A stretch of DNA of 23,731 bases from a virus, in the IMG/VR virus record IMGVR_UViG_3300020578_003265, positions 1 through 23,731 of that record; one strand, written 5' to 3'. The position numbers and the translations under genes were made by a program. The notes under the pieces were generated by a model. It saw nothing but the letters and a program-made list of their open reading frames with translations, was not told the origin of the DNA and made no database searches. Below, piece after piece: positions 5,012 through 20,657 of the stretch; positions within the stretch are counted from its first letter, which is position 1, and each line of letters starts with the position of its first letter.

Positions 5012-5389
5012 TTAGGAGAGGTCGATGCCTTCCAACTTCTCTAGCGTAAGCGAAAATGACACCACGCCATCAACTCGCTCGTTGATCGATGCCGCCGTGA
5101 CCATGTAAGAGCTATTAGTCGAGGCCGCATGAGATCCTGCGACGGTAACGGTTGTGCCGATAGCGGGCAAAGTTGCAGCAGCGGTAGGCAGGATTTCAAC
5201 GGTTAGGGTAGTCTTGAAATTGTAATAGACCACGTTGACTACCTTGCCGTCCGCGCCTCGGTTGTCGGCACGCTCGGCCTCGTCGCTCCGCTGAATGCTC
5301 TGGACAATCCCTCCGACCACGCCCGTGCCGGTTACGGCTGCATCCGCGTGAATGCCCCAAGTAAGTGATGTGCCTTTTTGAACGCTCAT
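5012..5389 (-). CDS. Putative major tail tube protein
   Basis: This 125-residue, beta-rich protein is full of Thr, Val and Ala (for example VVNVVYYNFKTTLTVEIL and VVSFSLTLEKLEG), with almost no long helices. That is the expected make-up of a tail tube subunit. It sits between the tail terminator-like gene and the chaperone-like gene, the position of the tube gene in lambda-like phages. It is shorter than lambda gpV (246 aa) because it lacks an extra surface domain. A gap of 59 bp precedes it and holds a good promoter candidate with a consensus -35 element, consistent with the high copy number a tube protein needs. No Shine-Dalgarno sequence precedes the ATG. Confidence 0.65.
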   Translation of the reverse strand: MSVQKGTSLTWGIHADAAVTGTGVVGGIVQSIQRSDEAERADNRGADGKVVNVVYYNFKTTLTVEILPTAAATLPAIGTTVTVAGSHAASTNSSYMVTAASINERVDGVVSFSLTLEKLEGIDLS

Positions 5390-5448: not shown

Positions 5449-5880
5449 TTAGACTGACGCCGGACAGCACGTGACGCGGAACGAAGCAGAATTTACGTGC
5501 GAGTCGTCTTCCACGGATTGACCAAGCTGGCCGAACTCCACCATAAAAGCCTTGAAGTCGCTGATGGCCGCGCTCAAATCGGCGGCGGCGGTGTCGGTGG
5601 TGAGCGCGTCAAATACGGTGGCGCAGCGAAGTTCATGCTGCGCCGGGGTGCTATCGGATTTATTTGAGCGCACGCTCACAACCAGCTCGACTTGTTGAAT
5701 CCCAGTGAACTGCAAACCCTGCGGCGGGCTGGCCGAGGTCGCCTCACAAATCGCGCACGGCAGCGTGATCGCGTCGGTGTCGAGTCCAGTGAACACGGCG
5801 AGGCCGGTTGACGAGGCGGCGGAAGCGATAACGGCGGCGGCGGCTCGCTCGACCTTGGCTTGTACAGAGGAGAAGGGCAT
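5449..5880 (-). CDS. Putative tail terminator / minor tail protein U-like
   Basis: This is a 143-residue protein starting MPFSSVQAKVERAAAAVIAS. It has an N-terminal helix, a central beta-rich part (VELVVSVRSNKSD) and a helical segment (FDALTTDTAAADLSAAISDF), then a final strand. Size and layout agree with tail terminator proteins, which cap the tail tube and bind the head connector. Its place after the Z-like gene and before the tail tube gene is the same as U in lambda. The start at 5880 lies 2 bp after the preceding stop. The assignment comes mainly from gene order. Confidence 0.55.
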   Translation of the reverse strand: MPFSSVQAKVERAAAAVIASAASSTGLAVFTGLDTDAITLPCAICEATSASPPQGLQFTGIQQVELVVSVRSNKSDSTPAQHELRCATVFDALTTDTAAADLSAAISDFKAFMVEFGQLGQSVEDDSHVNSASFRVTCCPASV

Positions 5881-5882
5881 GG

Positions 5883-6545
5883 CTATTTGGTTGAGTTTTT
5901 GGGCGGGATAAATTTGTTGGCCGTCTTTTGCAGCTTGTCGGAGATGTATTTGGCCATGTCTTGCGTCTCCTCGTTAAATGCGCGTTGAGTTGCTGCGACC
6001 ATAAAAGCCTCAACTTTGGGCATTTTGCTTCGGTCTTTCGGAGTGGCGTTGTTTTCAATCTCAGCCGTTGGCGACAGGCTGTCTTGGGCGGGTTTAACGC
6101 GACCAACTGGACGCCCTTTGCGTCGTTCAACTGCTGAAGAACCGGCCAAACGGCGAATGGCTGGCAACCAGCCTGACCGGAAAAAGCCAGCCGAATTAAC
6201 TCTAGCCGTCACAAACGCTTGCAAAAGTTCGTTTAGGTTTTTGCTTGTTTCTAATTTTCCAAGCCGCCGCAGTTGAGCAACCAAAATGGCCCGCGCACGC
6301 GAGTTCTTTTGCACCACCAGCTTTTTCTTTTTGGTTGGCTTGCCGCGCTTGCCAATCACTGCTTCGTAGGATGCGCCAAGCTCGGCAGCAATTTTGGCTC
6401 GGTCTGCTTTGGGTGTGGCGGCATACGCTTTGAACGCTACGCCCCCGGCCTTTTTGTTAATGGCTTCGGCCAAAGTCTTTGAAGTCAGCGTCACATATTG
6501 TTTTAACGCCTGGTCAAATTGACGGGTGTCAAAAGTTATGCTCAT
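5883..6545 (-). CDS. Putative minor tail protein Z-like / tail completion protein
   Basis: A basic 220-residue protein starting MSITFDTRQFDQALKQYVTL. It has amphipathic N-terminal helices, then a very Lys/Arg-rich segment (KRGKPTKKKKLVVQKNSRAR), the motif FFRSGWLPAIRRL around residue 125, and a helical C-terminus. Proteins with an N-terminal 'F...ALK.YV..T.K...' helix and a later '..GF.R.GWL.AI' segment are common at this neck position in siphoviruses. The ATG overlaps the previous stop by 4 bp. Gene order (capsid joining genes, this gene, terminator, tube) matches lambda Z. A completion or neck role is likely, though not proven. Confidence 0.6.
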   Translation of the reverse strand: MSITFDTRQFDQALKQYVTLTSKTLAEAINKKAGGVAFKAYAATPKADRAKIAAELGASYEAVIGKRGKPTKKKKLVVQKNSRARAILVAQLRRLGKLETSKNLNELLQAFVTARVNSAGFFRSGWLPAIRRLAGSSAVERRKGRPVGRVKPAQDSLSPTAEIENNATPKDRSKMPKVEAFMVAATQRAFNEETQDMAKYISDKLQKTANKFIPPKNSTK

Positions 6546-6715
6546 CGACAGCGGGAAGGCGTTTCCAAAGGCGGAAAAACAGGCAGCAAATTTGTCGCGC
6601 AGCTAATTTTCAGCCGGGTCAGAGCCAAATCCAGCGGACGCAATTCTCGGCGATTGGCAAATCGAATTCGCGCCTTTAACGCTGCCAGTGCTGCCGCCTC
6701 GCGTGCGTAAGTCAT
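6542..6715 (-). CDS. Small protein in the head-tail joining region, unrecognised (57 aa)
   Basis: A short frame starts MTYAREAAALAALKARIRFANR. It is placed by its neighbours: the ATG at 6715 overlaps the preceding stop as ATGA, and its own TGA overlaps the ATG of the Z-like gene as ATGA. An upstream in-frame ATG at 6733 would overlap the previous gene by 22 bp and is less likely. The N-terminal half is an Ala/Arg-rich helix, and the rest is basic with Leu and Pro. The function is unknown, and it may be a connector accessory protein. The double overlap is the main evidence that it is a gene. Confidence 0.5.
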   Translation of the reverse strand: MTYAREAAALAALKARIRFANRRELRPLDLALTRLKISCATNLLPVFPPLETPSRCR

Positions 6716-7023
6716 CGGTTCGTCGCCACGCATTTGAGTCTGGCTTCGGTGTTAATCTGGCTCAGGTCGATTTGCTCGACCCGATAGGAGCGCGAGCGAT
6801 GCACCACAACGCTGCCTCGCGCTGGGGCTGGCGTGGGCAAATCCAAAACGCGAGCCGAGATCGTCACGTCGAAGTCGTCAAGAAACCCGCCCATGTCGTT
6901 TTTGCGGCCAGACGTGCGGAAGGTTACGGAACAAGGAATGGTGGCCGCGCCAAAGGTAAACGTCTCCCCAAGCTCGGCAAAGATGTAGCTCAGGTCGGCG
7001 TTTTGTTCACTGGCCAGGCTCAT
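6712..7023 (-). CDS. Putative head-tail joining protein
   Basis: A 103-residue beta-rich protein begins MSLASEQNADLSYIFAELGE. It has a pattern seen in small head-tail joining/stopper proteins: short N-terminal helix, then strands (TFTFGAATIPCSVTF, FDVTISARVLDLP) and a final 'GSVVVHRSRSYRVEQIDLSQ' region. It follows the major capsid gene and an AT-hook protein and precedes tail genes, the place of FII in lambda. Its ATG lies within the last 17 bp of the preceding gene in another frame. The role is inferred from size, fold type and order. Confidence 0.6.
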   Translation of the reverse strand: MSLASEQNADLSYIFAELGETFTFGAATIPCSVTFRTSGRKNDMGGFLDDFDVTISARVLDLPTPAPARGSVVVHRSRSYRVEQIDLSQINTEARLKCVATNR

Positions 7024-7321: not shown

Positions 7322-8209
7322 TTATTCAGAGACGATGCGCTTGATGTTGCCAGCGACGCCCACGGCCACGCCGTAGATGATGCCGACTTCCATGCGGTAC
7401 TTGCGGTCATCCGCAGAATACCAGCGGCGGAACTGAAGCGAAAAACCAGACTCGGGATCGGTCACGGTCTCGATTTCGCCGGGGTAATTGGCAGGCGCGG
7501 CGGGCAAGCGGGTCGCAACCAGCAGACCTTGGTTAGTGCCGCACATACCGACGAGGTTTTCGGAGTTGCCGGGAATGTCCGTGTACTCGAAAACCGACAA
7601 GCCATGCACGCGAGGAATGCGGTTTTCCAAAATCACCGAGGGGCTACCGTAAGCGTAGGCTTGCTGCACCGAGGCGTCCTTGGCGAGGTTGGCGTAGTAC
7701 GATGGGTTGATAAGCAAAAACCGGCCATCTTGAGGCACGTTGCCAGAGGTCAGCGTGGCGGCGAGGTCGGCGCAGTCATCGGCGTCAAACGTGCCAGCCG
7801 CGCCAGTGAAGCCTGCCGCGCCAAAGTTGGCGTTGGTCACTAGAGCTAGTGCGCTGTCAATGATCGCGTTGGCGATGCCGTTGACGGCGGGCTTGATGAA
7901 GACCTCGTTGAGGTTGACGCTGCTTTTGCTCCACTCGCTGTCGCTAAAAGCGATGCGCGTGCCTTTGTAGTTCGACAGGCTGATAGTCTTGGCCGTGGTG
8001 GTCGCGTCCTGGTCTGCCGCCGCCGCCGTGAAATCCTGCGCGGTGGTCGCGGTGGCAACGCGAGTCGTCACGCTCTCACCCTGCGTGGCAACGTCAGAGG
8101 AAAAGTCGGTTGCCATCACGCTGCGCAGAAGCGGAAGCTTGGGCAGCAAAACGTCGAGGGACTGGGCCGCAATCGCGGCTAGATTTACACCATTGAGTGA
8201 ATTTGGCAT
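7322..8209 (-). CDS. Major capsid protein
   Basis: This 295-residue protein starts MPNSLNGVNLAAIAAQSLDVLLPKLPLLRSV. The layout suits an HK97-fold coat protein: helical N-arm, a 'QGESVTTRVATATTAQDF' strand region, a long spine-helix region (FIKPAVNGIANAIIDSALALV), 'DGRFLLINPSYYANLAKDASVQQA', and a beta-rich end with FQFRRWYSADDRKYRMEV-like sequence (here LQFRRWYSADDRKYRMEV) and a final GVAVGVAGNIKRI strand. Its position after protease and scaffold fits. It is shorter than lambda gpE (341 aa). No lambda gpD-like decoration gene lies before it. No Shine-Dalgarno sequence precedes the ATG, although the region upstream is A-rich. Confidence 0.85.
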   Translation of the reverse strand: MPNSLNGVNLAAIAAQSLDVLLPKLPLLRSVMATDFSSDVATQGESVTTRVATATTAQDFTAAAADQDATTTAKTISLSNYKGTRIAFSDSEWSKSSVNLNEVFIKPAVNGIANAIIDSALALVTNANFGAAGFTGAAGTFDADDCADLAATLTSGNVPQDGRFLLINPSYYANLAKDASVQQAYAYGSPSVILENRIPRVHGLSVFEYTDIPGNSENLVGMCGTNQGLLVATRLPAAPANYPGEIETVTDPESGFSLQFRRWYSADDRKYRMEVGIIYGVAVGVAGNIKRIVSE

Positions 8210-9497: not shown

Positions 9498-10975
9498 TCG
9501 GATGGTTCGGGTTCAGTTATGGTTGACGGCGGGTTGGGGCTGCGTTGCTGCAAGAGCGACAGCGCGGCCTCGATGGTGACGCCGTGCCGAGCGGCGAGAG
9601 CTTTTGAGCGTGTGAGCAGGTCGTCGGCCTCGGCCTCCTGCTGGTCGCGCTCTTCCTCCCACCATTTGCCACGACGGGCGGCAATGTCTTTCATCGTCGT
9701 GAAGCCGAGCTTGTATTCCTCGCGGTCAACTTGGCTGGAATAGCCCTTGTCAGCGGTCATCTGTTCGGGCGTCTGGTGAGCAATTTTCCACCAGTCGGGA
9801 TTCTCTGGCAGTTCGCCCTCTTTAATAGCCTTGGCGATGCGCCACGCATCAATGCGCCTCGCCATGTATTGAGCCACGCACTGATATTCTGCGATGGTGC
9901 GTTGCGCGACTTCCATGACCATACGGAGCGACGCCCCGCCAATTTTGGTCGCGTCGTAAGTTAGCTCCACGGGCCAGTTGATCGCTTGCAATCCGTCGCG
10001 GGTGATTCGCTCCCAAAACTCCTGCGTGTTCTGCGATGGCCGCGAGCTTTCAGGGAACTCAATCTTGCTGCCGCTGTTGGCTCGGAAGATTCGCATCGTC
10101 GCGCCGTCGGTGCGTTCCTCATAAACCGAGCCGCCGTTGGCTCCGCTGCCGCTGGTAACTTCGTCCGCATCTAAATCCAAGCTGCCTTCCTCGGTGTGTT
10201 CGACCACGGCGAAGCTCGCTTCCTTCTTCAGCGCGAGCCGCAGGAACTCGAATGCTTGTTTCCGGTCTTGCCAGTCGCGGATTCCCGCCGCGATTTGCGA
10301 CGTGCCACGGGTTTGATCGGCAAAGTCTGGCCGATAATAAACCGCCAAATCTGCGGTGGAAACGTCGCGGGGCTGGCTGGCTCCGTCGTAAATCCGCCAG
10401 CCGATGACGCGGCCAAACGGGTTGAGGATGGCTCCATTGACTAGGAGGTTTCCGGCAAATGCCCCGTCTAACACTTCGCTGGCTTCGCCAACCGAGCCGA
10501 TGCGGTGCGCGGGGATTAGTTGGATTTGCGGATATTCGGACGACTCGCTGTGCGTGAGCAGAACGCCCACGTCGCCGTCGCGGATAATGCTGATAATCCC
10601 AACGCGCAGGACGTTTCGCCAGTCGTACATTCCACCCGACACGGTGCAGACCTTGTGCCACTCGTAGAGCAGGCTTTCGGCTCTCTCGCCCCAATCGCCC
10701 TGTGGCCGTCCATAATATTGGGGAATAAACGCATCGCCAATGGCCGTCGCTGCAATGGTGATGATGGCGTTTTGCAGCGGCGCGACGTTCGCGTAGAGAT
10801 ACCGGCCCAGGCTCATCAACTCCCGGTGGCCACTGCCAGCGATGGAGTTGTAATCAGCAGCAGCATTCCACACGCGAGGCGTGCGCGAATCCCAACGAGC
10901 CGAATCGTACAGCGTGTTGCCACGGGCGGCAGGCCGTCCGTACGCGTCCAGAATGCGAAAGGGTTTTGCAGCCAT
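9494..10975 (-). CDS. Portal protein, lambda gpB family
   Basis: A 493-residue protein of the length expected for lambda-type portals. Recognisable parts are an N-terminal region with RELMSLGRYLYANVAPLQNAI (about 52-72), the 'W..VLRVGIISIIRDGDVGVLL' segment (~118-140), IPAHRIGS, and a C-terminal half with 'INWPVELTYDATKIGGASLRMVMEVAQRTI'. It forms the dodecameric ring through which DNA is packaged and ejected. Its gene lies directly after the small connector gene (stop TAG at 10977, ATG at 10975) and overlaps the protease gene by 4 bp. The C-terminal tail is acidic. Confidence 0.9.
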   Translation of the reverse strand: MAAKPFRILDAYGRPAARGNTLYDSARWDSRTPRVWNAAADYNSIAGSGHRELMSLGRYLYANVAPLQNAIITIAATAIGDAFIPQYYGRPQGDWGERAESLLYEWHKVCTVSGGMYDWRNVLRVGIISIIRDGDVGVLLTHSESSEYPQIQLIPAHRIGSVGEASEVLDGAFAGNLLVNGAILNPFGRVIGWRIYDGASQPRDVSTADLAVYYRPDFADQTRGTSQIAAGIRDWQDRKQAFEFLRLALKKEASFAVVEHTEEGSLDLDADEVTSGSGANGGSVYEERTDGATMRIFRANSGSKIEFPESSRPSQNTQEFWERITRDGLQAINWPVELTYDATKIGGASLRMVMEVAQRTIAEYQCVAQYMARRIDAWRIAKAIKEGELPENPDWWKIAHQTPEQMTADKGYSSQVDREEYKLGFTTMKDIAARRGKWWEEERDQQEAEADDLLTRSKALAARHGVTIEAALSLLQQRSPNPPSTITEPEPSE

Positions 10976-12112: not shown

Positions 12113-13892
12113 ACGCGCTGGCATCCATCGCCACTAGTGCCATCAGCAAGCAGTCGCCGTAGTGATTGTTGCCCGAGTCGCGCCAACGCCAGACGGTGTT
12201 GCCCCGGCTTCCCTTTTCAGGTTCGCGCCGTTCGTCTTGGATCTCTGCTATAAAGTCGCTGCCCACGTCGGCGGGCAGTTCAAAAAGCGGCCCCTTGCCT
12301 TTGAGTGCGAACAGGTAAAGCCGCCCCTTGTAGCTTTCGTTTGACCACTCAATTCTGGTCACGCCTTTTGTGGCTGCGCCCTTTGTGCCGATAAACGGAT
12401 CAACCGAACTTACCCGAAACGGGCGGTGTACGATTCGTTTGCTTGCGTTCTTGTGAGCAAAACCGTCCTGTGCGCTGCCGCGCATAGCCAGCCAGTTCCA
12501 ACGCACGCACTCGCGGAGGATTTCGGTCTGCCGGTTGCCGTCGGCAGAGTCGATGAACACGCCGCGATTGGCGACTCCTTTGGCCGTTTGCAAGGCGCGG
12601 AGGTCGTCAAAGTGCGATAGCCGCCCGTAGTCCACAACGCGAAGCTCGCCGCCCTCGCGCAGTTGGCAGAGGGTGAACCGCAAGTGATCTTTTTGCACGT
12701 CCACGGTGACAATGCGCGTGACCCGTCGCTGGTCGTTTGCTGGCCAAAATTCGCCGCGATTGTATTTGCCACAGAGTCTGCGGATTTCGTTCTCGTCCGC
12801 CACGTCGCCAATGAGCAGCCACGGTTCGCCAAGGGTTTCGCGCACGAAGCTTTTAAGCGGCTCCATCTCGCCGGATTCGGCGCGTTCTTTCGCTGCGAGG
12901 AATTCGCACACGATGTCGTCCCACTTGACCCAAAGGGAATACGCGGCCCACCAGTGGAAAGACTGGACGCCTGGCTCTGGCGTCGGGTTGCGATCATAAC
13001 GCTCCAGGGTTTGCAGCAGCTTGAATTGCTCACTCTGGTAAATGTTTGCTTCGCACGACTCGCACTGATAGCGCAAGGTCTTTCTAAGCTCGGCCCAGTT
13101 CCAACGCCCGCTCGGGCGCGTGGTGTCGTTAGTGTCCCACACCAGCCCGCCCTTGTCTCTGGCTTCGGGAAAAACCACCGACTTCTCGCGGCCAAAGCGA
13201 AACGGCTGGCGGTGTCCACAGTGCGGGCAAGCCCAGTGAAAAAATGTCTGCGTGCCTTGTTCCCATTGCGCGTGAACGGTTTCGCCTGCGTTCATCGGCG
13301 TCGATATAACAACGGTCTTTGAGTGGCTGTATGATCGAACGCGCTTGCCGACCTTCTCAAAGCTGGACGGAGGCCAATCGCTAACTTCGTCGCAAACCAG
13401 CCAGCGCACGGGCGTTGACTTAAGTTTCGAGGGCGAGTTTGCCCCGCGAAAGTAGACTGGCATGGACGTGAACCGGACGAGGTTAAGCGTCTTGCCTGAG
13501 CGTTCGGCGGGCATTCGTGAAGCGACCTCCGGTATTCGCTCCAGCAATGGCATCAACCTCGCTTTTGTGAATTCGTCGCAAGCCTCCTCGCTGGCCATGA
13601 CCCAGAACATCGGCCCAGGAGCTTCGCAGATTGCCCACGCAGCAAAGACCATCAGGGTCTGCGTCTTCCCCGCCTGAGCCGATACCATTAGGACGACTTT
13701 GCGCGTGCGGCGGTCTTGCAACGCATCAAAAACGGGTCGCACCATTGGCGAAACGTCGGTGCGGTATGGCCCCTCGATTTGGGAAAGGCCGGTCAAATCA
13801 ATTTTGGCCTCGGCCCACTGCCACAGCGACAGTTCGGAAGGCGGGGTCAACCAGTCCGCCATCATGCCGTCTAATTTTTCGAGGCCGGTCAT
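12051..13892 (-). CDS. Terminase large subunit, GpA family
   Basis: This 613-residue ATPase/nuclease cuts and packages DNA. Visible motifs: adenine-binding 'FDALQDRRTRKVVLMVSAQ' region, Walker A SAQAGKT (71-77), Walker B WLVCDEV with Asp168-Glu169, and STPM (197-200). It has two Cys pairs, CPHC (222-225) and CESC (277-280), as seen in many GpA terminases, and nuclease acidic residues in TVDVQ (Asp398) and VFIDSADG (Asp448), then 'NNHYGDCLLMALVAMDAS' near the C-terminus. Length is close to lambda gpA (641). The ATG overlaps the small subunit stop by 4 bp. Family membership suggests cos-type or related cleavage. Confidence 0.92.
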   Translation of the reverse strand: MTGLEKLDGMMADWLTPPSELSLWQWAEAKIDLTGLSQIEGPYRTDVSPMVRPVFDALQDRRTRKVVLMVSAQAGKTQTLMVFAAWAICEAPGPMFWVMASEEACDEFTKARLMPLLERIPEVASRMPAERSGKTLNLVRFTSMPVYFRGANSPSKLKSTPVRWLVCDEVSDWPPSSFEKVGKRVRSYSHSKTVVISTPMNAGETVHAQWEQGTQTFFHWACPHCGHRQPFRFGREKSVVFPEARDKGGLVWDTNDTTRPSGRWNWAELRKTLRYQCESCEANIYQSEQFKLLQTLERYDRNPTPEPGVQSFHWWAAYSLWVKWDDIVCEFLAAKERAESGEMEPLKSFVRETLGEPWLLIGDVADENEIRRLCGKYNRGEFWPANDQRRVTRIVTVDVQKDHLRFTLCQLREGGELRVVDYGRLSHFDDLRALQTAKGVANRGVFIDSADGNRQTEILRECVRWNWLAMRGSAQDGFAHKNASKRIVHRPFRVSSVDPFIGTKGAATKGVTRIEWSNESYKGRLYLFALKGKGPLFELPADVGSDFIAEIQDERREPEKGSRGNTVWRWRDSGNNHYGDCLLMALVAMDASAFSRGAILPTAAKDYELKPAP

Positions 13893-14404
13893 TTCGGTTT
13901 GGGAACGTGTGGCATACGCGAAATCTCCTTGAGCATCGCCCGCAGCCCGTCGTTGACCCGCCCCGCTACGAAGTCGCCCGGCTGGTTGTGGCAGATGGAC
14001 GCCAGCCCGTCGCCAAAGTTGGCAAGCCTCGCGGTAAAGGCGGTCAGCACCGAGCCCATCGTTGCCGAGATGGTGTCCACGTCAATCAGCTTGCCCTCCT
14101 TTTCGTCGGCTTCCATCTCGGCCAGCCGGGCCAGCCGTGCTTTGGCTTCGCGTTCGCGGAGCTTGGCGGCTTCTAGCGTGCCGCTGACTTTTTTTGCCCG
14201 TAACGACTCGACGTAACCGCGCACGCTGTCTGGCATGGGCCAAAATCCGTGCCGAGTTCCGCGCTTGATCACGCCAGCGTCGGCAAGCCTTGAAATTGCG
14301 CGAGGAGATAAACCCAGCATCGCGGCCAAATCGTTGGTTCCTATCTCGTTGACAGGCATGGACATGGGTTTCTTGATCATGTTAGGGCCACATTCGGCGC
14401 GCAT
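13889..14404 (-). CDS. Terminase small subunit, Nu1-like
   Basis: A 171-residue protein with an N-terminal helix-turn-helix (NDLAAMLGLSPRAISRLADAG, about 24-44) followed by a winged-type segment, then a long charged helix (LEAAKLREREAKARLARLAEM) and the 'EGKLIDVDTISATMGSVLTAF' motif typical of Nu1-type small terminases. It recognises the packaging site and recruits the large subunit. The start at 14404 lies 2 bp after the previous stop. In-frame ATGs at 14380 and further on would give slightly shorter proteins that still keep the HTH, so the exact start is uncertain. It overlaps the large subunit by 4 bp. Confidence 0.85.
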   Translation of the reverse strand: MRAECGPNMIKKPMSMPVNEIGTNDLAAMLGLSPRAISRLADAGVIKRGTRHGFWPMPDSVRGYVESLRAKKVSGTLEAAKLREREAKARLARLAEMEADEKEGKLIDVDTISATMGSVLTAFTARLANFGDGLASICHNQPGDFVAGRVNDGLRAMLKEISRMPHVPKPK

Positions 14405-16397: not shown

Positions 16398-17426
16398 TTA
16401 AACAGGCATGATTTTGAAACTTGTGAACGGCCCCATCCGGTTCCACTCGTCCAGGTCTTTAGGCCAAGTGCCGTCGGCTCGTCGGTCATCGGAGAAATCG
16501 GCAATCTTAACGCTGGCGGCAAAAGGTTCCAGTTGCTCGCCCCACTTGGTTGCGCCCTTGAAGCCGGTCTTTTCAGCGTGAGCAAAAATGCAGACCCGTT
16601 TGCCAGCAAACAACGGCAAGGCGGAAGGGTCAATCGACGGCGAGGCAGACAGCATTGCCACGGGCGCACACGATACGTCGGTCTTCGTGTAATGACTGGC
16701 CTGCTCCCACAATATGACTTGGTGAGCCACCAGAAAGTCCGGCAACCCTTCCACCAACGCTATCGCGGGAAATTCTTTGGCCTCTGGCAATCCTAGCGGC
16801 CAGCTTTTTTGACTCCCCTTGACGCTGTGACTTTTGCGCTCAGGCAGCGGCCCCATTTTGGGAAACTTCTCGTTGTCAACCCGCCGAACCTCTAGCACCC
16901 GCCCGCTGGCGTCGGTTACGCCGTAGCACTTCCAATCTCGCCAGCGACCCGTCACCAAGACACCCCGGCTTGCGGCCCACCTTAAACCCTCAATGCCGCC
17001 GATCTCTCGGTAGAACAGAATCTCTTGCAAATCCTTTTGCGAAGCTGCGCTAAAGCCTTCCAGCGAGGGCGGATGCCTTTCCACTGGCGGCGACGGCTTG
17101 TACTCAACGACAGGAGCAACCGGGCGCGGCAGGATTATTTCGTTGCCCTTGTGTAACAAGTTGCCGCGCTCACCCGGCCACTTGGCCACCGTCTCCAGCA
17201 ATCGCAGCAACTCCTTCTCCTGCCACGGCGGAACGCACGTTGCATTCCACTGGCGAAAGACTCCCAAGGCAACTTGTGGCTCTAGGTCAAAACCCATAAC
17301 AACCGCTTTAGCCAGTCGCGCCGTCGTGCCGTTGCCATCCTGACCTTGAATCGCAGGCCCGCACTTGGCGAGATAGCTTGCCGCTTGATCCGCCGCCGTG
17401 CGTTCGGTTGTGCGTATGAGTTTCAT
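16398..17426 (-). CDS. Toprim-domain primase-like protein
   Basis: A 342-residue protein that overlaps the upstream methyltransferase by 4 bp and is followed by the SF3 helicase, giving a two-gene primase-helicase pair. Residues ~17-80 (YLAKCGPAIQGQDG ... RQWNATCVPPWQEKEL) resemble the helical PriCT-type module that accompanies phage and plasmid primases. The Toprim core starts at IALVEGLPDFL with Glu226. The second motif reads IFAHAEKTG (280-288), so the usual D-x-D is H-A-E. It ends with DLDEW (324-328), often seen as 'DLND' in relatives. No CHC2-type zinc finger is present. Primer synthesis is inferred. Confidence 0.7.
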   Translation of the reverse strand: MKLIRTTERTAADQAASYLAKCGPAIQGQDGNGTTARLAKAVVMGFDLEPQVALGVFRQWNATCVPPWQEKELLRLLETVAKWPGERGNLLHKGNEIILPRPVAPVVEYKPSPPVERHPPSLEGFSAASQKDLQEILFYREIGGIEGLRWAASRGVLVTGRWRDWKCYGVTDASGRVLEVRRVDNEKFPKMGPLPERKSHSVKGSQKSWPLGLPEAKEFPAIALVEGLPDFLVAHQVILWEQASHYTKTDVSCAPVAMLSASPSIDPSALPLFAGKRVCIFAHAEKTGFKGATKWGEQLEPFAASVKIADFSDDRRADGTWPKDLDEWNRMGPFTSFKIMPV

Positions 17427-18916
17427 GGTCTTTGAGATTTGCAGGCCTCAATCCGCTCACAAGCGGTTTGAAAATGGGCGGGGTCGCGCTCGATGCCGAT
17501 GAAGTTGAAGCCCTCGCGCAGCGCGGCAATGCCCGTGCTGCCGCTGCCCATGAACGGGTCAAGGACGATGCCGCCGGGCCGCGTGACTAACCGCACAAGG
17601 TAGCGCATGAGCGCGATGGGCTTGACGGTCGGGTGCGGGTTGCGCCAGCTTTCCTCGCCGACGCCAAACAGCGGAAGCGCGGACTTGGTATGGTTGCCAC
17701 GGTCTTCGCCCGACGCCTTCGCCGTGTAGAAGAATCGGGCGGCAGAACCGGAGTCGCCGTAGCCGACTGCTTCCCATTCCCTACCAGGTGTGAAACTCCC
17801 GCCTCGCTCCTTCCATGCGGTTGTTTCTGCTCTTTTGTATTTCTGCGGCCCCTTTGCGCTCGTCGCTGTCTGCGGAAACAACCCCACCACCTCGTCGCTG
17901 CCGTCGTGGATGAGGTTGGCGGGCCAGCGGCCTTTCTTCCAATCATCCGTGACGCTTCCAGTCATCCCGCTGGTGTTTTTCCATCCTTTGCTTTCATATT
18001 GCGGTCTGCCCGTAATCTCCCCGCTCGCATCCACCCTGCACCCATCCACGTTGATCGCCCCCGTGCCGTGCCGCAGCACATTCTCCGCAACCGTGCCGAC
18101 TAGCGGCTTGCGTGCGACGGTGATTGGCTCTAGCGCGGGCTTCAGCGCAGTCCCCCACCCGGCCCACTGCTTCGCGGCGTCGGTCGCGGGCGCGGTAATG
18201 TTGCGGTCTGCAAACTTCGTCCCGCCGTCCATGTCCCACCCACTCATGGCGTTCTTTTGCACCCCCACCACCTCGCGCTCGGCCCATGCGTCGCCCGGTT
18301 GGCCCTTGCGCCCGTTCAGCCGCCACACCTCGGCGTCCATCCTGTCGTCGAATCCGACCTGCGCCTTTAACCACAGCCATCGCTCCCATGTTGGAATCAC
18401 GGCATAATCCGCGTTGCGCTCTGTCCATGACTGAATCGGCTGGTTGGCAACGCCAAGAGCATCACACAACTGCCGCCGAGTGACACCTAGCGCATCCATT
18501 TGATCCGCCACCCATGCTGTCACTGCAACGCGGGGCGCGGCGTCCTCTTTTCGCATCCTGTCGATAGCCTTATCGACTGCCAAACTTTTGGGAAATCCCG
18601 AGCCATACACCCACGCGATCATGTCGCGGATCTCAAACCCGGCGTCTTCGATGTTCACCGCCATCCGGTGTTGTGTCCGTGTCCCGGCGAAGCTCAACAG
18701 GTGCGCCCCCGGCTTGGCCGCCGCCAGCACCAGCCGCCAAAGCTCAACGCTTGGCACGTCGTAATCCCAAGCCTTGCCCATGAACCGCAGGCCATACGGC
18801 GGGTCAGTCACCACGGCATCCACCGGCGCAAGCGTCGGCAGCACGTCCGCGCTGTCGCCGTGGTAGAGCGTGCATAGCGCGTTGCCGTGCCTAATGATGA
18901 CGGGTTGGTTGGACAT
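17423..18916 (-). CDS. Beta-class DNA methyltransferase (N6-adenine type likely)
   Basis: This 497-residue S-adenosylmethionine-dependent DNA methyltransferase starts at ATG 18916, which overlaps the preceding stop as TAATG; another ATG at 18940 would add 8 residues. Catalytic motif IV is TDPPYG (37-42), and the SAM-binding motif I, VLDPFMGSGST (451-461), comes later after HPTVKP, so motif order is beta class. DPPY favours N6-adenine. A phage-type middle (GWGTALKPALEPITVARKPL, GTGAINVDGCR, GRWPANLIHDGSDEV) is as in many phage enzymes. Residues ~138-180 hold an HTH-like insertion (GVTRRQLCDALGVANQPIQS). No cognate restriction enzyme is nearby, so protection from host restriction or a regulatory role is inferred. 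Confidence 0.85.
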   Translation of the reverse strand: MSNQPVIIRHGNALCTLYHGDSADVLPTLAPVDAVVTDPPYGLRFMGKAWDYDVPSVELWRLVLAAAKPGAHLLSFAGTRTQHRMAVNIEDAGFEIRDMIAWVYGSGFPKSLAVDKAIDRMRKEDAAPRVAVTAWVADQMDALGVTRRQLCDALGVANQPIQSWTERNADYAVIPTWERWLWLKAQVGFDDRMDAEVWRLNGRKGQPGDAWAEREVVGVQKNAMSGWDMDGGTKFADRNITAPATDAAKQWAGWGTALKPALEPITVARKPLVGTVAENVLRHGTGAINVDGCRVDASGEITGRPQYESKGWKNTSGMTGSVTDDWKKGRWPANLIHDGSDEVVGLFPQTATSAKGPQKYKRAETTAWKERGGSFTPGREWEAVGYGDSGSAARFFYTAKASGEDRGNHTKSALPLFGVGEESWRNPHPTVKPIALMRYLVRLVTRPGGIVLDPFMGSGSTGIAALREGFNFIGIERDPAHFQTACERIEACKSQRP

Positions 18917-19029
18917 TATGCCTGCCGCCTTCTCGACCATTGACCCACCCGCCCCAAGCCAGGTCGCCAGCCGTTGCGGACGGCCCGATCAATCTTGGCA
19001 ACGATCTTGCGAAGCTGTTTGCGGGTCAT
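18916..19029 (-). CDS. Tiny basic protein (37 aa), unrecognised
   Basis: The frame MTRKQLRKIVAKIDRAVRNG... ends SRRRQA and carries about a third Lys/Arg residues. It is supported by its joints: its ATG overlaps the preceding stop as ATGA and its TAA overlaps the methyltransferase ATG as TAATG. It may be a real small DNA/RNA-binding peptide or a translational coupler for the methyltransferase. Too short for a reliable coding test. Confidence 0.4.
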   Translation of the reverse strand: MTRKQLRKIVAKIDRAVRNGWRPGLGRVGQWSRRRQA

Positions 19030-19259
19030 AAAAAAGGCTCCGCACCGGCCATTACCGGGCGGAGTTTTGGCGGCTGTTTCCATACAGCAGCCTCGCAGCC
19101 ACTGGACGCATTATGCGCAACCGTCAAAGTCTCTGGGCCGCAATCAGGGCAAATCGTGTAGCTGACTCGGCAAGCCACCGGCAGGGCTATTTCGCTTTCC
19201 TTTCGCCATTGGCGATCTATGCAGCGGATCCGTCGGCAGCGCGGGCATTGCGTGGCCAT
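19026..19259 (-). CDS. Zinc-ribbon-like protein, apparent C-terminal half of a split gene (77 aa)
   Basis: The protein starts MATQCPRCRRIRCIDRQW and contains CPRC (5-8) and CPDC (about 36-39), spaced like a zinc ribbon, then a less conserved tail. Its ATG lies within a 37-bp tandem duplication. If one copy is removed, the frame joins perfectly to the upstream 57-aa membrane ORF and yields a single 124-aa protein, so this is probably the displaced C-terminal half. It may be made by reinitiation, since the upstream stop lies only 4 nt before its ATG. The specific function is unknown. Confidence 0.6.
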   Translation of the reverse strand: MATQCPRCRRIRCIDRQWRKESEIALPVACRVSYTICPDCGPETLTVAHNASSGCEAAVWKQPPKLRPVMAGAEPFL

Positions 19260-19317
19260 CAGATCAGGCAGCGTCGGGTTGGCATTGCGTGGCCATCAGA
19301 TCAGGCAGCGTCGGGTT
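19244..19317. repeat. Perfect 37-bp tandem duplication
   Basis: Positions 19244-19280 and 19281-19317 are identical 37-mers. 37 is not a multiple of 3, so the insertion shifts the reading frame of the minus-strand gene that spans it. Both copies carry the same ATG context (at 19296 and 19259). Identity of all 37 bases points to a recent event, or to an assembly error. Confidence 0.9.
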
Positions 19318-19437
19318 GGTGATCCGTCCGCGCTCAATCCCGCACTGCTGGTCGGTCACGCCATCGGCGCGTAACCAAAAGAAAAACAGCGTCAGCAGCA
19401 GCCCGCCGATGACTGCAATTAAGGTTTGGTCGCTCAT
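19264..19437 (-). CDS. Small membrane protein, apparent N-terminal half of a split gene (57 aa)
   Basis: The frame starts at ATG 19437 (MSDQTLIAVIGGLLLTLFFF), overlapping the helicase stop as ATGA. Residues ~6-22 form a strong transmembrane helix followed by WLRADG, so the N-terminus probably lies outside or acts as an uncleaved anchor. It continues through DQQCGIERGRITNPTLPDL into the first copy of the 37-bp duplication and ends there (MATQCQPDAA stop). Without the duplication it would read on into the CPRC zinc-ribbon sequence. It could still act alone as a short membrane peptide. Too short for the usual ORF cut-off. Confidence 0.55.
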   Translation of the reverse strand: MSDQTLIAVIGGLLLTLFFFWLRADGVTDQQCGIERGRITNPTLPDLMATQCQPDAA

Positions 19438-20657
19438 AAAACTGCTTCTTGGAATTTCAACGCTCGCGGGCAGACGGAGAGATAAGTCGGACTAGCCTTG
19501 AGCCATAAGCCTTCCAGCGACTTAACCCGACTTAGGGCGACGTATGCCTGCCCCGGCTCCAAAGCTGCGCGAATGTCGATGTAAGCCCCCGGTAGAGTCG
19601 TCCCTTGCGACTTGTGGATGGTCATTGCGTAAGCCACGCGCAACGGGATTTGCCACATCTTTTCAGAATTCCGAGCGCGTGGGTTAAGCTCCCATTCGTA
19701 GTCGTTCGCCAAAATTGTCTCCCCCTCATCCGTGGCCACGGTCACGCTGTTCGCGGTCATGCCGTCAACCCAGCCCGTCGTGCCGTTGACAAATCGCCCC
19801 TCGCTATCGTTGGCGGTAAACATCACCCGCGCCCCCAAACGCAACGCCAGACGCATCGGCGTGATGCTGTTTTTCTTAAACCATGCCCGCACTTTTTCGT
19901 TGTTTGTCGAAAACGTGGCCTCGTAAACAAACTCTGGCAGCGACAAGTCGTCCAGCATGGCAAAATTAACCCGGTCAACATCGCGGTTGTGCGTGCATAG
20001 GCGCGTCAACCTAGCGGGCGGAAACATCTTGACGCATTGCTCCAGGGTTTTGCTTGACCGAGCCGAAAGCCGCCCCCGCCGCACGTCGCTTAGGGTTTCC
20101 AGATACTTGAGGTCGGTTTGCCGCCAGATTTTTTGCAAGCGCACCGTGGTAAAATTTGCCTCCGTCCAAGATTGGCTCTCAAACGCCCAATCATACGGCT
20201 GCTGATCTCGGCGCACGGGCGGCAACTGCAAGAAGTCGCCAGTGGCGATTACTTGTATGCCACCAAAAGGCCGGTCATCGTCGCGGCAAAACTGCAGCCA
20301 GAAATTGATGAAATCCAAAACCCTCCCCGGCAGCATGGACACCTCGTCGATAACAAGCGTGCGGCATTCGCGGATCCGTTGCCTAGCGTTCCGTGTATAA
20401 GCTGCCGGGATTTTGCAAAGATACTTGGCAAAATCCAAAAACGATTCGTCGGGTTCGGGGCCAATCCCAATCCCAGCCCAGCGGTGAATGGTCATGCCGC
20501 CGACGTTGAGCGCAGCGATTCCGGTGGGCGCTACCACGTCAGCGTCACGACCTTCCCTTGCCATCCATTCGCGCAATACCGTGGATTTGCCCGTGCCTGC
20601 CTGTCCGGTCAGGAACACGTTTTTTCCGGCTGTTGCTAATGCGGCAAAGTCGCTCAT
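19434..20657 (-). CDS. Pif1/RecD-like SF1B DNA helicase
   Basis: A 407-residue ATP-dependent 5'-3' helicase. Motifs in order: Walker A GQAGTGKS (18-25), motif Ia VVAPTGIAAL then GMTIHRWAGI (41-63), Walker B LVIDEVSML (101-109), motif III GDFLQLPPVRR, and near the C-terminus the Pif1/RecD motifs MTIHKSQGTTLPGA and QAYVALSRVKSLEGLWL. All core motifs are intact. It is compact, like other phage-encoded copies (Dda/Pif1 type). It overlaps the methyltransferase upstream by 4 bp (20654-20657). Roles in replication restart, origin melting or recombination are expected from family. Confidence 0.88.
   Translation of the reverse strand: MSDFAALATAGKNVFLTGQAGTGKSTVLREWMAREGRDADVVAPTGIAALNVGGMTIHRWAGIGIGPEPDESFLDFAKYLCKIPAAYTRNARQRIRECRTLVIDEVSMLPGRVLDFINFWLQFCRDDDRPFGGIQVIATGDFLQLPPVRRDQQPYDWAFESQSWTEANFTTVRLQKIWRQTDLKYLETLSDVRRGRLSARSSKTLEQCVKMFPPARLTRLCTHNRDVDRVNFAMLDDLSLPEFVYEATFSTNNEKVRAWFKKNSITPMRLALRLGARVMFTANDSEGRFVNGTTGWVDGMTANSVTVATDEGETILANDYEWELNPRARNSEKMWQIPLRVAYAMTIHKSQGTTLPGAYIDIRAALEPGQAYVALSRVKSLEGLWLKASPTYLSVCPRALKFQEAVL

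Follow-up and report, generated by a model that had tools for sequence, protein, structure and literature searches.

The locus and its tandem duplication

The window analysed here is a complete virus record of 23,731 bases from a bacteriophage. On its minus strand, a PIF1-like helicase gene (19434..20657; Pfam PF05970, E 5.7e-29) is followed by two short open reading frames and then, downstream, by a DNA methylase gene of the N6_N4_Mtase family (17423..18940; Pfam PF01555, E 2.9e-28). The helicase stop codon overlaps the ATG of the first short frame (ATGA), which encodes 57 aa (19264..19437), corresponds to an N-terminal half with a transmembrane helix predicted on an intact relative, and terminates at the TGA at 19266-19264. 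The second frame encodes 77 aa (19026..19259), starts at the ATG at 19259-19257, carries a CPRC...CPDC pair of motifs and stops where the intact relatives do. The two are separated by TCTG, the stop-to-start gap of 4 nt that an earlier note on this DNA had described. A G+C-rich hairpin followed by TTTTTT, terminator-like in appearance, lies in the 3' end of the gene on the same strand (19038..19064; predicted energy -20.7 kcal/mol over a 42-nt stretch).

Between the two halves lies an exact tandem duplication with a unit of 37 bp (19244..19319), for which Tandem Repeats Finder reports period 37, 2.1 copies and a 100% match. Compared directly, the stretches 19244-19282 and 19281-19319 do not differ at any of their 39 bp, and they have 2 bp in common at the join; the probability that they arose by chance is negligible (order 1e-18 under a uniform base model). 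The reading-frame positions and the arithmetic agree throughout with those in the earlier note, which had recognized the duplication by inspection of the letters. The microhomology at the duplication ends is the 2-bp CC, which is unremarkable: by hand calculation, at least 2 bp are expected at ~0.16 of random junctions. Neither the duplicated junction nor the window's 37-mer itself is matched exactly by any sequence in viral_contigs.

Since 37 is not divisible by three, the shifted frame reaches its TGA after 57 codons, the last five of which encode foreign residues contributed by the duplication, and a full-length anchored ribbon would no longer be made. Removing one copy leaves 412 - 37 = 375 bases, or 125 codons including the stop; this restored frame, also foreseen in the earlier note, equals the gene length in both relatives described below.

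Intact relatives and the ancestral state

A search of 2.9 million viral contigs with the 77-aa protein returned two relatives as the sole matches (L002 and L003; IMG/VR 3300020183_000288 and 3300020200_000002), and repeat searches of the same collection with the intact protein and with two DNA patterns recovered only these two again. Homologues of the split gene were absent from genome_contigs, phages and plasmids, and the gene is an orphan. Both relatives have terminase, portal and capsid genes in common with the window, but they differ from it in having a single copy of the 37-mer and another upstream gene. In each, the single copy lies within an uninterrupted 124-aa frame (L002:4860-5234 and L003:4860-5234) whose start, stop, 3' end and 3' hairpin match the window gene. 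The earlier note had predicted an intact 124-aa homologue, and had named as the contrary outcome homologues encoded as a separate pair of genes or a failure to find any intact relative; the intact form is present in both relatives found among the viral contigs, and the contrary outcome did not occur among the homologues. These comparisons support an ancestral gene of one 124-aa frame whose split was caused by the duplication.

The 77-aa frame is 97% identical to L002 and 92% identical to L003, and the 57-aa frame 96% and 94% identical to the two over 52 aa. Relative to L002 the two halves show 5 and 6 synonymous and 2 and 2 nonsynonymous codon differences, the five overlap codons being counted in both halves. 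The corresponding Nei-Gojobori ratios, rough since the differences are few, are 0.20 and 0.13 against L002 and 0.14 and 0.24 against L003, with 0.17 between L002 and L003. Ratios of 0.13-0.24 in all comparisons indicate that the intact protein was probably under purifying selection. Set against the ~4% divergence between window and L002 over the gene, the duplication copies show 0 differences; being identical to each other and absent from both relatives, they mark the duplication as derived and young. Both halves are still open frames, as expected for a young event.

Homology to the relatives at this locus is limited to 19024-19437, from the ATG to just past the stop, with a separate short match at 18920-19029. 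The split gene and the next frame, of 38 aa, match the relatives boundary to boundary, and several hundred bases lie between them in the relatives. Judged by this pattern of matches, the region is mosaic gene by gene. Since homology is bounded at the gene ends and the upstream genes differ, the gene seems to travel as a cassette, forming the ATGA overlap with whichever gene precedes it and carrying the terminator-like hairpin in its last codons. The hairpin and T-run occur in L003 at 5195-5222 and in a second copy at 5784-5811; the second copy, matched with A or G permitted at one position, ends a sigma-70-region-4 gene. The hairpin CTCCGCCCGGTARTGGCCGGTGCGGAG with its T-run thus sits within the final codons of two genes that are unrelated to each other and encode a similar C-terminus (LRPVMAGAEPFL / LRPVVAGAEGLL), and this hairpin end is possibly a mobile gene-end cassette marking mosaic boundaries. 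Elsewhere in the window, an imperfect 120-bp repeat array (322-599; 2.3 copies, 75%) matches repeats of the relatives in differing registers.

Frame integrity and other tandem repeats

When the relatives' frames were compared with the window by tblastn, the portal, protease, capsid, tail and terminase genes showed no break, and among established genes the duplicated one alone was split. The sorting was by judgement, the other flagged rows being opposite-strand frames, cuts at record ends or mosaic boundaries, and longer upstream starts. That the shared conserved genes are free of frame breaks speaks against a record of poor quality overall. A second, smaller repeat is found at 14120-14137, where an exact 9-bp in-frame tandem duplication lies in a terminase small-subunit-like frame (13889-14404); its absence from the relatives G001, G002 and L052 implies that the lineage does acquire small tandem duplications. 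Exact tandem units of >30 bp are uncommon but not unique, occurring twice in a pool of 66 sequences totalling 641,757 bases, from which 9 overlapping loci had been dropped: the 37-bp unit of the window and a 43-bp unit in L017, a phage contig, at 7753-7843, whose length is likewise not a multiple of three.

Predicted protein features

On the intact relative, AlphaFold confidently predicts a helix at residues 3-25 (block pLDDT 85-89), and the peak 19-residue hydropathy is 2.19, in keeping with the transmembrane helix that had been read from the first frame. Residues 26-124 have pLDDT < 50, with an alignment of 2 sequences. The cysteines C52, C55, C84 and C87 are invariant between the two intact relatives and are also found in the window frame. 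The zinc ribbon of the earlier note therefore holds as a conserved set of CPRC...CPDC pairs, at the level of a motif, with no confident AlphaFold model beyond the helix. We take the 124-aa protein to be membrane-anchored and probably zinc-binding.

The best family hint is a resemblance to the Lar family (PF14354), with E values of 0.043-0.13, the lowest for the window's half, and scores of 13-14.5 bits, below the gathering cut-off of 28.6. No NCBIfam family scored above cut-off for the protein, and the other family libraries gave sub-threshold matches only. We take the resemblance as a lead, not as membership; the accessible part of PMC3874165 touches on Ral with a reference only.

Start sites and an analogous arrangement in L008

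The start of the 77-aa frame shows no Shine-Dalgarno-like pairing (0.4 kcal/mol, calculated with an E. coli-type anti-Shine-Dalgarno). The same is true of 6 of the 15 other window starts counted, the start of the 38-aa frame being left out, whose pairing energies are 0 or above, compared with a random-position median of -3.3. These starts, at 10975, 9497, 8209, 13892, 4383 and 5880, have energies of 0.1 to 1.3 and include those of several structural genes. The pattern suggests a host that is not reliant on Shine-Dalgarno motifs, and since other phage starts also lack the pairing, its absence at the 77-aa frame does not decide whether ribosomes re-initiate there. In the search for a host, relatives of the terminase were absent from genome_contigs and only distant in phages (~25% identity in the best 10 of 502 matches, all 502 being < 60%), and the window holds no tRNA.

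In L008, downstream of a helicase 68% related to that of the window, a transmembrane frame of 54 aa (6463-6627), ~230 bases beyond the helicase, overlaps by GTGA a DnaJ-like CxxC frame of 57 aa (6624-6797), the two being separate genes at a similar place. L008 is alone in having a transmembrane frame adjoining a CxxC frame among the 15 helicase loci examined (of 43), and small CxxC frames also lie downstream of the helicase in L014, L015 and L018. We considered the L008 pair as a natural two-gene homologue and rejected it, as neither frame resembles the split-gene protein and no homology is detectable; the pair is analogous, not homologous, to the anchor and ribbon of the window.

Discussion

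Combining the repeat structure, the intact relatives and the codon comparisons, our analysis points to a recent spontaneous 37-bp tandem duplication in an orphan phage gene, most likely yielding a null or nearly null allele, a reading to which we give a probability of roughly two in three. We propose that strand slippage or template switching, with the join at the CC microhomology, could have produced the duplication, and that the resulting frame shift would probably abolish the full-length 124-aa protein. Production of the soluble C-terminal part would require ribosomes to re-initiate at the ATG that lies 4 nt further on, or to use an independent start. An ordinary fresh frameshift is most likely; its serious rival is an assembly artefact. 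Among the options left side by side in the earlier note, a fresh mutation fits best and an artefact stays possible; its ancestral intact gene and derived split are borne out, and for the reversible switch that it also entertained there is no positive evidence.

Should the duplication be an artefact, contig ends overlapping by 37 bp would have been joined unmerged, and the real genome would carry the intact 124-aa gene. We judge this unlikely, if worth taking seriously: an unmerged overlap of that length would look identical in the record, and it would account for the exact copies, the frame-breaking length and the single copy in both relatives. The source is an IMG/VR-type virus contig, the mosaic region around the gene has close variants, and the 43-bp unit of L017, also not a multiple of three, is what artefacts would allow. 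However, the 76-bp array is shorter than an ordinary short read, the conserved shared genes show no further frame break, and the 9-bp in-frame duplication elsewhere in the window favors a natural process. On balance we consider it likely that the duplication is a real mutation.

A functional split, in which termination-reinitiation at TGA TCTG ATG would yield anchor and soluble ribbon as separate products, is improbable. Coupled re-initiation between the halves is geometrically possible, given the gap of 4 nt, and the want of Shine-Dalgarno pairing is no obstacle when six of the fifteen other starts share it. Both relatives keep the ATG as an internal methionine codon, but the protein sequence alone accounts for it. 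The separate, overlapping transmembrane and CxxC frames of L008, downstream of the same helicase, offer a parallel arrangement, though not a detectably homologous one, and the event is too young for any decay test.

Tandem duplication can turn a gene on and off, as in the pneumococcal capsule. A reversible slippage switch at the present site, a form of phase variation in which one and two copies alternate and are selected as such, is very improbable: although slippage can undo any exact tandem repeat, and the available part of a review (PMC13207564) describes reversible duplications with premature stops, the two-copy state is not recurrent in relatives, there being no second two-copy allele, a junction that matches 0 viral contigs and a single copy in both relatives, and the 2-bp microhomology is of a kind frequent at random ends. 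Reversion is a property of all tandem repeats and hence no evidence for a programmed switch. That the duplication is real and adaptive, giving a free ribbon and a free anchor by coupled re-initiation while slipping back measurably, and so a two-state accessory protein, we hold to be highly unlikely.

Returning to the spontaneous duplication, the locus shows plainly how a phage accessory gene looks soon after a tandem duplication has broken its frame, the nearest relatives still having intact alleles. If reads confirm the two copies, the site would lend itself to measuring, in natural populations of phages, how short tandem duplications revert; failing that, it amounts to an ordinary mutation or an assembly error. 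Annotators should record two genes here only with evidence that both are made.

Two known systems frame these results. The protein resembles Lar zinc ribbons (PF14354) in its CPxC ... CPxC spacing and C-terminal aromatic region, with a DNA methylase gene close downstream here, but the protein of the window and its relatives bears an N-terminal transmembrane helix, which Lar proteins are not known to have. For the duplication itself, the accessible part of PMC11960111 makes no mention of tandem duplication, and the closest comparison is with the microhomology-mediated tandem duplications of fission yeast ssp1, described as reversible and as introducing premature stops in the part of the review PMC13207564 available to us. 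In contrast to these, the duplication of the window lies in a phage and has a microhomology of 2 bp only, with no reversion or population mixture observed. The two nonetheless share exact head-to-tail copies, bases common to both ends at the join and a premature stop, and, like its yeast counterparts, the duplication described here is in principle reversible to a single copy.
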